Origin: a virus
Length of the DNA: 64,000 bases
Strand: one strand, 5' to 3'
IMG/VR virus record: IMGVR_UViG_3300033571_011685
Coordinates: 62,001-126,000 of that record
The notes under the pieces were generated by a model, which worked only from the letters and a program-made list of their open reading frames with translations, was not told the DNA's origin and made no database searches. Position numbers and translations under genes: made by a program. Shown here in pieces: positions 26,190 to 30,107 of the stretch (positions are counted from its first letter, which is position 1; each line of letters begins with the position of its first letter).

Positions 26190-27098
26190 TTAGTCATCCT
26201 GCAACTTCTTGAAGAAGTCGTCTAGATCCTCATCTTCATCAGAGGAACCTGCCAGTGCAGGAGCGGCCGCTTCCTTCAGCTGAGGCGCAGGAGCTTCAGT
26301 GTGCCAAGGAACATCGTCCTCATCGACCGTAGCACGAGCAGCTGCAGTGGTAGCAGTGCCAGTCAGACCGAGAACACGATTAAGCTTGGCTTCCAGCTCA
26401 GCGAACGACTTGAAGTTAGAACGATCGAGGAAGGGCTGCAGCTTGTGCTCGCTCTTGTAGATCGCTTCCAGCTCGTCGTCACCAGCCAGCGGACGTTCGG
26501 CATCGAACTCAGACTTGTCGTAGTTGCGATAGCCTTCTACCTGGCGAATCTTCAGCTTGAAGTTGGCGCCGTTCCAAAGATCAAACGGATTGATCGGAGC
26601 GTCGTCAGGAAACTGAGGATTCATGAGGTCATTGATCTTGTCGAAGATCTTCTTGCCATACTTGTACAAGAAAACCTTGCCTTCGTTTTCCGGGTTTGCC
26701 GGATCAGAGACGACATAGATGTTCGAGATGTAGGTCAGACGACGCTTCTGCTTGCGAGCCTGTTCCTTGTCCTTGTCGTTGCCTGAATTCCAGAGCTTGG
26801 AATTGTACTCGCCGACAGGATCCTTCTCACCGATGGTGGTCAGTGAGTTCTCAATGTACCAACCGGCGGGGCCCTGGAATCCATGATCCCAGATACGAAT
26901 GAACGGCAGATCTTCACCGTCAGGAGCAGGAAGAAAGCGAATGACAGCGTAGCCGTTGCCAGCCTTGTCTACGCTAGGCTTCCAAAAACGATCGTCGTCG
27001 TTGCTGTTGCTCTGAGTGGTGGTATTCAGCTTGCTAAGGGCTTGATTAAGCTTATCGAAGCTGTTCGCCGACTGGCGCTTGAGGTCTGCAAATGACAT
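26190..27098 (-). CDS. 32: Single-stranded DNA-binding protein gp32
   Basis: 302 aa (T4: 301). N-terminal LAST-like cooperativity region (SFADLKRQSANSFDKLNQAL), an OB-fold core (YAVIRFLPAPDGEDLPFIRIWDHGF, NIYVVSDPANPENEGKVFLYKYGKKIFDKI, INPFDLWNGANFKLKI), and a strongly acidic tail (SSDEDEDLDDFFKKL) that recruits replication proteins. It has no Cys, so the T4 zinc site is absent, as in cyanophage gp32. AAGGAAACACACAT gives its ribosome site. It is the last gene of 33-59-32, the same order as T4. Confidence 0.95.
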   Translation of the reverse strand: MSFADLKRQSANSFDKLNQALSKLNTTTQSNSNDDDRFWKPSVDKAGNGYAVIRFLPAPDGEDLPFIRIWDHGFQGPAGWYIENSLTTIGEKDPVGEYNSKLWNSGNDKDKEQARKQKRRLTYISNIYVVSDPANPENEGKVFLYKYGKKIFDKINDLMNPQFPDDAPINPFDLWNGANFKLKIRQVEGYRNYDKSEFDAERPLAGDDELEAIYKSEHKLQPFLDRSNFKSFAELEAKLNRVLGLTGTATTAAARATVDEDDVPWHTEAPAPQLKEAAAPALAGSSDEDEDLDDFFKKLQDD

Positions 27099-27166: not shown

Positions 27167-27742
27167 TCACTCCACAAACTTGTTCTTCAATATTTCGCGA
27201 CACTTGAATGCATCGTAGTTGAAGAAAGGCTTGTACTTGACGAGCTTGGTATATAGGTCTGGCCAAAGCACGTTGTCTTGTATGTGCTTGTTCCAGTGCG
27301 GGAAAAAACCGACAATATCGTTGAGGATAATGACGGTCTCTATAGACACCTCGCCTTGTCTATAAAGCTTGAGCAGCAATGGATGCTGTCCATTGTCTAC
27401 CTTAAAGTTATCGTTGAAGTTTGTACATAGTTTTTCTAAATCTTGCGTAAAGATATAGGTCAGAGACTGCTGTCTCTTCTGCCATGCAACGTAGTTGTCT
27501 TCAGCCTCATTCGTAAAGAGGTCTCCGATCCAAGTAACCTTTGAGGCTATTAGATTGGAGACCAGATACTTTAAAGGATCTTTATGTTTGGAGAGCTTGT
27601 AATACTGATACTTGTCTTTACGAGTATCGAAAGACGCCGCGTTGGCGTTGACCTTGCCGTTGTACTTAAAGTAGTCGTAGGCAGGTTTCGTGAAATGCAT
27701 CTTCAGAGCTTGAAAAAGCTGGTATGTTTCGAATGGTGACAC
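27167..27742 (-). CDS. 59: Replicative helicase loader gp59
   Basis: 191 aa (T4: 217). The alignment-quality segment KDKYQYYKLSKHKDPLKYLVSNLIASKVTWIGDL corresponds to the T4 stretch RRDKYFFQKLSEKY...ISNLVANQDAWIGDI, and VSIETVIILNDIVGFF corresponds to ISFETFILLDSFL. gp59 binds forked DNA and gp32 and loads the gp41 helicase. It is flanked by gp33 and gp32 as in T4. Confidence 0.9.
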   Translation of the reverse strand: MSPFETYQLFQALKMHFTKPAYDYFKYNGKVNANAASFDTRKDKYQYYKLSKHKDPLKYLVSNLIASKVTWIGDLFTNEAEDNYVAWQKRQQSLTYIFTQDLEKLCTNFNDNFKVDNGQHPLLLKLYRQGEVSIETVIILNDIVGFFPHWNKHIQDNVLWPDLYTKLVKYKPFFNYDAFKCREILKNKFVE

Positions 27743-27754
27743 GCTGTGCCTCCG

Positions 27755-27991
27755 TCATATAGGTAGTTTAGCTCGCTTAGGAAGGAAGTTAAGATCTTCT
27801 GCTTCGTTCCGCAGCCTCGCCTTGATCCGCTGGTTGTTGCGAATAAGTGAGGCTGCGGCTTCTATTTCCAATCCATTCTTTTCACAGTAATGAATGACAG
27901 CGTCGATATAGTCAATGTTATGATTAGCCACGATCTTATCGATCTCAATGCTAAACTTCTCTGTACTCATTACTTTTTCCAAATGATCCAT
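27755..27991 (-). CDS. 33: Late transcription coactivator gp33
   Basis: 78 aa (T4: 112). STEKFSIEIDKIVANHNIDYIDAVIHYCEKNGLEIEAAASLI with LNFLPKRAKLPI at the end matches the cyanophage gp33 pattern. gp33 links RNA polymerase to the gp45 sliding clamp to activate late promoters. An AAGGATAATT site sets the start at 27991, just after the SleB-like stop. Its presence fits the NATAAATA late boxes found across the window. Confidence 0.85.
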   Translation of the reverse strand: MDHLEKVMSTEKFSIEIDKIVANHNIDYIDAVIHYCEKNGLEIEAAASLIRNNQRIKARLRNEAEDLNFLPKRAKLPI

Positions 27992-28811: not shown

Positions 28812-28819
28812 TATTTATA
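28812..28819 (-). promoter_or_regulatory. Late promoter (TATAAATA) for the SleB-gp33-59-32 transcript
   Basis: Exact TATAAATA on the minus strand. A GTACTT at 28836-28841 lies 16 bases upstream of TATAAA, the same spacing as the early-promoter family described here, so the site might serve both programmes. Confidence 0.65.
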
Positions 28820-28878: not shown

Positions 28879-29295
28879 TCATAGATCTGCTTTACGAACT
28901 AAATCTTTGTATCCTCGCCATGACGGATGGATATTATCTGGCTGGACGTAAGAAGTAGAGATGATGGTATCATTGTGTGCTGCAGCGATCTGTCTAACTG
29001 TGTTGTTGACGTTAGACTTACAGAAACCTCTGTTACAGGGAGGCATGATCCATACCACATTCACAGAACGAATTCGGTGACGAACCTTATTCAGTTCTCT
29101 GTAAGTGTTGATGTACCTGTGATCATTAGTACCTAGGCTGATCACGACCTTATTGGCTTCGAGCTTTACATTGCCCCAGCGTTTGTTCCACTGCCAAGTG
29201 TTGTAGCCGCCCTTAGAATAAGATACGCATTCTTTGGGAGCAAACATCTTGGTGCCGACGGCGATACTATCGCCAATAATCAAACATTCAAGCAT
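28879..29295 (-). CDS. SGNH/GDSL-like hydrolase
   Basis: 138 aa from the ATG at 29295, chosen because AGGAG lies 8 bases upstream; the longer frame would run into the tmRNA. SGNH blocks: IIGDSIAVG (nucleophile Ser), KGGYNT (Gly), ISLGTNDHR (Asn), and DNIHPS (Asp-x-x-His) near the C-terminus. It lacks a signal peptide. Such enzymes remove acetyl or other ester groups from polysaccharides; the substrate here is unknown. It starts 33 bases after the tmRNA coding piece and is probably co-transcribed with it. Confidence 0.83.
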   Translation of the reverse strand: MLECLIIGDSIAVGTKMFAPKECVSYSKGGYNTWQWNKRWGNVKLEANKVVISLGTNDHRYINTYRELNKVRHRIRSVNVVWIMPPCNRGFCKSNVNNTVRQIAAAHNDTIISTSYVQPDNIHPSWRGYKDLVRKADL

Positions 29296-29327
29296 ACTAT
29301 TTACTCCTATGATATTGGGCCCGTTCT

Positions 29328-29604
29328 GTTCCAAGGTGGAGCCCATACCCGTGAGATCACGCCGCTAGGCGAGATTCAAGGACACCGTTATCGTTGGCAT
29401 CTATACGTTGTGACCGCTCGGTCAGCGAATCAGTCTCGAATCTTCCTATTCCGTCCCAGTCGATCCTAGTTCACCCCCATCATAAGCGCTCAGTGTTGCT
29501 GAGAGGAGAATCCCGGTCCTCGGATGTGCAACCATCCTACATACCACTCCTGTTGCAACGCTTATGGTGGAGGTGGCGGGTACTGCCCCCGCGTCCTCGG
29601 AACC
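29328..29604 (-). ncRNA. ssrA: Circularly permuted two-piece tmRNA (alphaproteobacterial type)
   Basis: Read on the minus strand. The acceptor piece comes first: P2 strand GTTCCGAGG (29603-29595), T-arm GCGGG-GGCAGTA-CCCGC (29592-29576), acceptor strand CACCTCC (29575-29569), then A and encoded CCA (29565). An 86-nt spacer follows, closed by ATAAGCG/CGCTTAT. The coding piece starts at 29478 with GGGGGTG, which pairs all seven positions with CACCTCC including the G3-U70 wobble that specifies alanine. The D-region GGATCGACTGGG, a TGACC-GAGC-GGTCA pseudoknot stem, the tag frame, and CCTTGGAAC (29336-29328, pairing nine positions with the acceptor P2 strand) complete it. This rescues stalled ribosomes by trans-translation. 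Outer ends are approximate. Confidence 0.93.
29357..29398 (-). other. tmRNA proteolysis-tag reading frame (ANDNGVLESRLAA, stop)
   Basis: Thirteen codons plus TGA, starting with GCC at 29398. With the alanine carried by the tmRNA, the added tag would be A-ANDNGVLESRLAA. ANDN at the start and LAA at the end are the hallmarks of alphaproteobacterial tags; the LAA end is the ClpXP/ClpAP recognition signal. The final codons fall in a CGCC/GGCG hairpin. Confidence 0.9.
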
Positions 29605-29635
29605 TTTATTGTTGATTGTCATCAACTGATAGATT

Positions 29636-29666
29636 TATTTATACCAAAATACTTCAAATATGTAAA
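29636..29666 (-). promoter_or_regulatory. tmRNA promoter: sigma70-like TTTACA-N17-TATAAA overlapping late box TATAAATA
   Basis: On the minus strand TTTACA (29666-29661) is 17 bases from TATAAA, which is itself part of an exact TATAAATA late box (29643-29636). The acceptor piece starts about 25 bases downstream. The tmRNA could be transcribed both early and late. Confidence 0.65.
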
Positions 29667-29669
29667 TGC

Positions 29670-30107
29670 TTAGTTGCACCAAGATTGCTTGGCATCACCA
29701 AAATATGGACGCGCATAGCCGTTGGAGATCAGCTGTTCGCGAAGGCTCTTGCCATCAAGAACCACGTCGCCGAGTACACGACCACCAAACTTGTCCCAAT
29801 CATACAGCACGTACTGTTTCTTGGCAGCTCGAGCAATCAGATCCTTAGTGAAGGCACTTGCTGCCTGACCTTTGGCATCTTCAGCTGAGCACTTGGCACG
29901 AAACCCCTTCTCAGGCGTGTCCACGCCGAATATGCGAATCGCAATCTCCTTCTTAAGAGGAGCTTGGATCCACAGTGCTTCTACGACGACAGTATCACCG
30001 TCTGTAGCTCGTAGAATGTTGGCATCATACGTGACGCCTGTAGGTGTTTTTTGCGCAAACGCTGGAGTCGCCAGCGCCAACAGCGCAAGAAATGCAAGTT
30101 TCTTCAT
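29670..30107 (-). CDS. Secreted thermonuclease-like (SNase) protein
   Basis: 145 aa. Signal peptide KKLAFLALLALATPAFA with an AFA cleavage site near residue 18. The SNase core is complete: ATDGDTVVVE, IAIRIFGVDTPEKGF (catalytic Arg, Asp, Thr, Glu) and KFGGRVLGDVVL with the second catalytic Arg. It should act as a Ca-dependent nuclease in the periplasm or outside the cell. It lies upstream of the tmRNA and downstream of a gene for another secreted protein. A role in degrading competing DNA or salvaging nucleotides is speculative. Confidence 0.88.
   Translation of the reverse strand: MKKLAFLALLALATPAFAQKTPTGVTYDANILRATDGDTVVVEALWIQAPLKKEIAIRIFGVDTPEKGFRAKCSAEDAKGQAASAFTKDLIARAAKKQYVLYDWDKFGGRVLGDVVLDGKSLREQLISNGYARPYFGDAKQSWCN

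Follow-up and report, generated by a model that had tools for sequence, protein, structure and literature searches.

A permuted two-piece tmRNA gene with a putative composite early and late promoter in an uncultured T4-like phage

Introduction

Why bacteriophages carry a ribosome-rescue RNA of their own is an unsettled question, and it is raised here by a tmRNA (ssrA) gene in IMGVR_UViG_3300033571_011685, a 133,314-base virus record. The DNA analyzed, referred to below as the window, is a stretch of 64,000 nucleotides corresponding to bases 62001-126000 of that record. Two-piece tmRNAs of marine T4-like phages were published in 2022, in the description of the phage Melnitz, with 53 phage two-piece tmRNAs counted by 2021 (PMC9004378); the 2025 tmRNA database includes bacteriophage entries (PMC11915505), Bradyrhizobium elkanii phages with a tmRNA were reported in 2025 (PMC12656738), and we find that IMG/VR holds many further phage examples. 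The gene in the window thus belongs to a known kind, and the novelty implied by an earlier reading of this DNA, made from its letters alone (the sequence-only reading), was overstated. What appears to be new is comparative: a shared place upstream of a gp33-gp59-gp32 locus, a composite promoter, a nearly clean separation of phage and bacterial genes in a tree, and longer tags and spacers in the phages. The conserved, putatively early-plus-late promoter and the fixed place before the late-transcription coactivator make the question of why phages carry such an RNA a testable one.

The source phage and its gene content

By its gene content the source phage is T4-like. The window encodes baseplate wedge and tail proteins, gp32, gp59, gp33 and a NrdA-like reductase, and comparison with the Melnitz proteins locates gp55, gp45, gp44, gp23, gp17, gp20 and gp18 in the record, with gp55 and gp45 at 56% and 40% identity respectively; the late-transcription set of gp55, gp33 and gp45 is therefore encoded in full. 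The phage collection searched contains no near match to this phage. Its gp32 is closest by coverage to that of Melnitz (58%), the first 240 residues of the same protein are closest to cyanophages (about 65%), and the gp6-like baseplate protein is closest to those of Stenotrophomonas, Caulobacter and Sinorhizobium phages, at 40% or less. A search of the stretches that make up the record turned up no tRNA genes, only the tmRNA, and no SmpB was found in 19 phage records searched, the source record among them, so the tmRNA would have to rely on the SmpB of the host.

Anatomy of the tmRNA gene

The RF01849 model (alpha_tmRNA) matches positions 29670-29314 of the minus strand end to end (100 bits, E 4.2e-26), and RF04321 (tmRNA_permuted) matches 29627-29357 of the same strand (97 bits, cut-off 47). 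ARAGORN, used as an independent predictor, likewise reports a permuted tmRNA, whose tag is ANDNGVLESRLAA. Together with a base-by-base reading these matches bear out the proposal of the sequence-only reading, that this is a phage-encoded permuted two-piece tmRNA of the alpha type; the RF01849 search, which it had named as a check, gave a score well above the gathering cut-off of 50 bits.

All of the elements lie on the minus strand and in permuted order, with the T-arm, the 3’ acceptor strand and the encoded CCA preceding the 5’ acceptor strand. The acceptor piece has at its 5’ end a hairpin recognized by folding, GUUGAU-GACA-AUCAAC (29611-29626), and at its 3’ end a segment (29565-29592, from the Rfam alignment and base reading) made up of the T-arm GCGGG-GGCAGUA-CCCGC (29592-29576), the 3’ acceptor strand, and an encoded ACCA of which the CCA occupies 29567-29565. 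Seven acceptor pairs including G3-U70 can be read base by base between GGGGGUG (29478-29472) and CACCUCC (29575-29569). The internal spacer (29564-29479) is exactly 86 nt long, has complementary ends (UAAGCG and CGCUUA), and is predicted to be removed in processing. The coding piece opens with the 5’ acceptor strand GGGGGUG and the D-region AACUAGGAUCGAC (29459-29478; Rfam and base reading), with GGATCGAC at 29466-29459. A GACC-GAGC-GGUC stem (29412-29423) before the tag is, from its sequence, a candidate for the PK1 region; the tag frame of 13 codons and its TGA stop follow at 29398-29357 (ARAGORN and base reading). At the 3’ end there is a GGGCUC/GGGCCC hairpin (29317-29344; Rfam and relatives) with the loop CACCUUGGAACAGAAC, which corresponds to the alphaproteobacterial ACCUGGCAACAGAA motif. 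The acceptor pairs, T-arm, CCA, spacer, D-region and tag frame are thus all as the sequence-only reading had described them. The T-loop GGCAGTA, in which it had seen a departure from TTCGA, is normal for the family, being the commonest loop in both the phage (45 of 81) and the alphaproteobacterial (112 of 183) sequences; GGCGGTA is the second commonest in both sets. When taken from its predicted start the precursor folds better than 100 of 100 shuffled sequences (z -3.1).

The RF04321 score of the gene is below that of nearly all of the alphaproteobacterial sample (135-167 bits among the matches listed), so that it may be less active or have a changed function. Such divergence would fit an RNA that resembles tmRNA but acts as a decoy or inhibitor, keeping host SmpB or host trans-translation occupied, as would the lack of SmpB in these phages and the precedent of DS6A, whose RNA consists of the tRNA-like domain alone, has no tag, and inhibits tmRNA (PMC4131195). 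A decoy has no need of a tag, yet none of the tag frame, resume site, stop codon, G3-U70 or CCA is impaired here and the tag ends are conserved in relatives, and we consider a decoy improbable.

The P2 helix

One element of the earlier description does not hold. As the P2 helix joining the two pieces, the sequence-only reading had proposed nine pairs between GUUCCGAGG (29603-29595) and CCUUGGAAC (29336-29328), and these strands are indeed complementary, yet they are not conserved as a pair in relatives. We compared the pair stability of each gene’s own strands with that of strands swapped between genes, and for the nine-pair helix this gives, among genes that have the 3’ motif, z -0.8 in 18 from phages and +2.0 in 166 from bacteria; moreover, the partner strand differs in the closest relatives of the window’s tmRNA, L015, L192 and L198. 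We note that CACCUUGGAACAGAAC is the motif concerned and lies in the 3’ hairpin loop, as it does in alphaproteobacteria. The nine-pair helix was therefore rejected. The same comparison applied to the canonical P2 region gives z -15.8 in 81 phage genes and -7.4 in 183 bacterial genes, and L015, L192 and L198 keep CTGGGAC/GTTCCGAG exactly. On this evidence the real P2 is CU-GGGAC/GUUCC(G)AG, a helix of seven pairs around one bulged G that adjoins the D-region. Its strands, each placed by the RF01849 alignment, the swap comparison and the relatives, are GUUCC(G)AG in the acceptor piece (29596-29603) and CUGGGAC in the coding piece (29453-29459), the first C of which is the last base of GGAUCGAC.

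A putative composite promoter

Upstream of the gene an exact match to the T4-type late-promoter box, TATAAATA, occupies the position of a -10 element (29636-29643, minus strand), a place that is conserved in relatives. It is preceded at a distance of 17 nt by a -35-like hexamer, TTTACA (29661-29666, minus strand), for which relatives have an exact TTGACA at the same spacing. Set against the sigma-70 pattern of TTGACA and TATAAT 16-18 nt apart, the site reads TTTACA-17-TATAAA and matches five of six positions in each hexamer. The T4 late consensus is TATAAATA at -13 to -6 (PMC1524935), so that the sigma-70 -12 and late -13 positions nearly coincide and both polymerases would initiate no more than one or two bases from the same predicted start, at about 29630; this would coincide with the 5’ terminus of the acceptor piece. 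In the phage group the arrangement looks like a sigma-70 -35 box fused to a T4 late-promoter box, TTGACA-N17-TATAAATA. We found no earlier report of such a promoter in the freely accessible literature searched.

The phage tmRNA genes compared here were collected by means of a single D-region pattern and two scans with T4 proteins, and the fractions describe the matches listed; the gene counts vary slightly with the parser (81 for the swap comparison, 127 for the locus, 123 for the promoter). Of the 123 phage genes listed whose upstream sequence is long enough, 67 show an exact TATAAATA at a distance of 42-55 nt upstream of the T-arm, against 0.14 expected from shuffling, and the other 56 lack it there; alphaproteobacterial tmRNA genes have it anywhere in the 130 nt upstream in 4 of 190 cases. 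An exact TTGACA is in place in 53 of the phage tmRNA genes listed and is followed 17 nt later by TATAAATA in 40 and by TATAAT in one, whereas 830 TTGACA hexamers elsewhere in the same contigs are followed by TATAAATA in two cases and by TATAAT in 23. Viewed from the late box, an exact TTGACA spaced by precisely 17 nt accompanies 39 of the 68 TATAAATA promoters of phage tmRNA genes, compared with 2 of 162 other TATAAATA sites in the same contigs. These counts indicate that ordinary early promoters in these phages have TATAAT, ordinary late promoters are without a -35, and the tmRNA promoter has both. In L103 the two types of box are adjacent, as TATAATATAAATA.

The source record has about 20 TATAAATA sites, several of which precede late genes such as gp18, and the best -35 among them is that of the tmRNA gene, with one mismatch against two or more for the others. 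The gene could nonetheless be expressed late only, with TATAAATA as the working promoter, the -35 match as a residue, and rescue RNA made only when gp55 is active. The other TATAAATA sites of the record, for example that before gp18, have no -35, and the tmRNA promoter goes undetected in a standard sigma-70 scan; this miss goes with the mismatch in TTTACA and with a TATAAA that lacks the last T favoured by sigma-70. The excess of exact TTGACA at the tmRNA TATAAATA promoters relative to other sites implies, however, that selection maintains the -35 in the phage group, and we regard late-only expression as unlikely.

A scan of IMG/VR that began from the promoter gave 117 readable TTGACA-N17-TATAAATA sites, of which at least 29 lie directly before a permuted tmRNA (a strict parser recognized 21 of these, and ARAGORN or visual inspection a further 8). 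We abandoned the notion that tmRNA genes alone have the composite promoter, as two other recurrent gene settings share it. One of these is a gene starting with MAHFAEL, located directly behind it in six IMG/VR sequences (L465, L467, L500, L514, L529 and L561). The other is a TGTAG-TGCC-GGGG-CTACA hairpin just after the promoter, followed by CTCGCTTAA...AAGGAG and an ATG, in nine (L469, L475, L478, L483, L485, L491, L495, L509 and L533); this is possibly a structured 5’ leader in T4-like phages.

A shared locus upstream of gp33, gp59 and gp32

The neighbouring genes for which coordinates are given here are on the strand of the tmRNA gene. An SNase-like nuclease gene (29670-30107; Pfam PF00565) lies directly upstream of the tmRNA promoter, and the downstream gene encodes a GDSL-type hydrolase (28879-29295; PF13472, 36.3 bits) whose ATG at 29295 is behind an AGGAG and 18 bases past the predicted end of the tmRNA. 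The gp32-like single-strand DNA-binding protein gene (26190-27098; PHROG 224) is about 2.2 kb from the tmRNA, and between them are the GDSL hydrolase, a cell-wall hydrolase (PF07486), a gp33-like late-transcription coactivator (27755-27991; PHROG 254, E 1.4e-19) and a gp59-like helicase loader (27167-27742; PHROG 269). No terminator is predicted after the tmRNA, including the gap to the GDSL gene, so that an operon transcript probably begins with the tmRNA. Another late box, TATAAATA at 28819 (minus strand), lies between the GDSL and cell-wall hydrolase (endolysin) genes, such that lysis may have its own late promoter within the tmRNA operon.

Among 40 gp32-bearing IMG/VR records searched whole, 16 have a permuted tmRNA over the cut-off, located upstream of gp32 on the same strand and within 10 kb in 15 of them and about 31 kb upstream in the other. 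In a set of loci collected by tmRNA sequence and gp32 together, all of the gp33 (55 of 55), gp59 (50 of 50) and gp32 (39 of 39) genes found are downstream on the strand of the tmRNA, 0.2-6.5 kb away.

The ssrA genes of Melnitz and similar Methylophilales phages (MZ577095-MZ577098; PMC9004378) resemble that in the window in being permuted, of the alpha type, carried by T4-like phages, located on the strand of gp33 and gp32 and upstream of both, and preceded by the composite promoter, there TTGACA-N17-TATAAATA. They differ in their tag (ANDNYVPVDYALAA rather than ANDNGVLESRLAA), and Melnitz has a glutamine riboswitch at the 3’ part, for which there is no match over threshold within the window. 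The authors of that study described the promoter as early (using BPROM) and the origin of the gene as SAR11-like (PMC9004378); our reading notes a late box too, departing from their call of an early promoter.

The permuted tmRNAs of Erythrobacter phage vB_EliS-L02 and Mesorhizobium phage Cp1R7A-A1 are, like the window’s, over the RF04321 cut-off, but have another genomic setting, with no T4 cluster in the stretch seen and no TATAAATA upstream; the vB_EliS-L02 promoter is an ordinary TTGACA...TATGAT. Both tmRNAs are unannotated in the public records (L002, OL955261.1:75768-76055, and L003, MT188704.1:58735-59021, respectively). The ssrA genes of mycobacteriophages and phage G (PMC4131195) are also phage-encoded, but are not described there as permuted and belong to phages of other hosts.

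Relationships of the phage tmRNAs

The tmRNAs closest to that in the window are L015, L192 and L198, from uncultured T4-like phages in IMG/VR, which have the same P2 strands and T-arm and are up to 86% identical. L192 and L198 also have the gp32 locus in common with it; all three differ in the tag (ANDNNAYGAYALAA, 14 aa), in having TATATATA in place of TATAAATA, and in the spacer. Alphaproteobacterial ssrA genes (RF01849, Caulobacter type) share the permuted order, the T-loop GGCAGUA or GGCGGUA, G3-U70, an ANDN...AA tag and the 3’ ACCUGGCAACAGAA hairpin, but score higher and have a shorter tag and spacer. Median spacer lengths are 79 nt in the phages and 31 nt in the non-SAR11 alphaproteobacteria.

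We built a tree from 170 columns with 71 tmRNAs of phages and 65 of alphaproteobacteria; the data are short and the branches long. It requires two changes between the phage and bacterial labels, compared with 45.6 in shuffles, and one clade (support 96/93) takes in 64 of the 65 bacterial tmRNAs. The tmRNA in the window groups with L015, L192 and L198 (100/96) and with L119, and that of Melnitz with the phages and not with SAR11. Placement of the window’s tmRNA with the bacteria is not rejected by the AU test (p 0.17), nor is that of Melnitz with SAR11 (p-AU 0.063, not decisive), and on these short data the phage and alphaproteobacterial tmRNAs seem to separate almost cleanly, the phages forming a family of their own. 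An alphaproteobacterial tmRNA, L420 (G103:C11:81847-82047), groups with phage L073 on a long branch and is possibly phage-derived or misplaced.

Phages use ssrA as an integration site and ssrA fragments occur in prophages (PMC9004378), and it is conceivable that the gene in the window was captured recently from a host and is passively carried. Its nearest relatives are all phage genes, the label changes in the tree are few even if the AU test tolerates a bacterial placement, and the locus and the promoter are phage-specific; recent capture is accordingly the least probable of the alternatives considered, and very improbable. We put forward, at about even odds, the broader proposal that the permuted tmRNAs of phages constitute an old lineage belonging to the phages themselves and not the product of repeated captures from hosts, held at one T4-like locus and expressed throughout infection from a promoter that passes from sigma-70 to late transcription at a shared start.

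The proteolysis tag

Tags have a median length of 14 aa in the phages and 11 aa in the non-SAR11 alphaproteobacteria, and about 95% of both phage and bacterial tags combine an AN... start with a hydrophobic-Ala-Ala end. The middle of the tag varies even between closest relatives, as between ANDNGVLESRLAA and ANDNNAYGAYALAA. The suggestion that a distinct tag may redirect degradation finds no support: ANDNGVLESRLAA is unique in the sample examined, but it retains the AND... start and the ...LAA end, and RLAA ends occur in bacteria too (for example ANDNNYAEARLAA). With its ends conserved it should still be a ClpXP-type degron. We also note L047, a phage permuted tmRNA whose predicted tag is very long, at 31 residues (ANATVNNGEFTFVNFGALNDFAVNEDFALAA).

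Proposed function

Given these features, we propose with a probability of roughly 0.7 that the gene is a working permuted phage ssrA, transcribed both early and late and acting in ribosome rescue with the SmpB, AlaRS and ClpXP-type proteases of the host. A precursor beginning near 29630 would be made from the one composite promoter, early in infection by host RNA polymerase using the sigma-70 -35 box and late by the phage gp55-gp33-gp45 machinery using TATAAATA. Host enzymes would cut out the 86-nt spacer to give two pieces of about 63 and 160 nt, an acceptor piece and a coding piece, joined by the acceptor stem and P2, and the RNA would be charged by host AlaRS via G3-U70. Host SmpB would then bring it to stalled ribosomes, which would move to the ANDNGVLESRLAA frame, and the tagged fragments would pass to ClpXP-type proteases. 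The phage would thus control the supply of the RNA, with trans-translation itself being ordinary. A steady supply is likely to be beneficial, probably because numerous non-stop mRNAs arise through phage infection and the degradation of mRNA. The perfect TATAAATA box just upstream and its conservation across relatives lend support to the earlier suggestion that the tmRNA sustains ribosome rescue late in infection, and the -35 box may extend this to the early phase.

From the conserved promoter and the fixed place of the gene follow predictions on the timing of the RNA and on its use to the phage, which should extend over the whole of infection. Promoter and place also speak against inferring a recent change of host from the ssrA sequence of a phage, and if the permuted tmRNAs of phages are indeed an old lineage of their own, the published inference of early action and recent SAR11 origin would be overturned.
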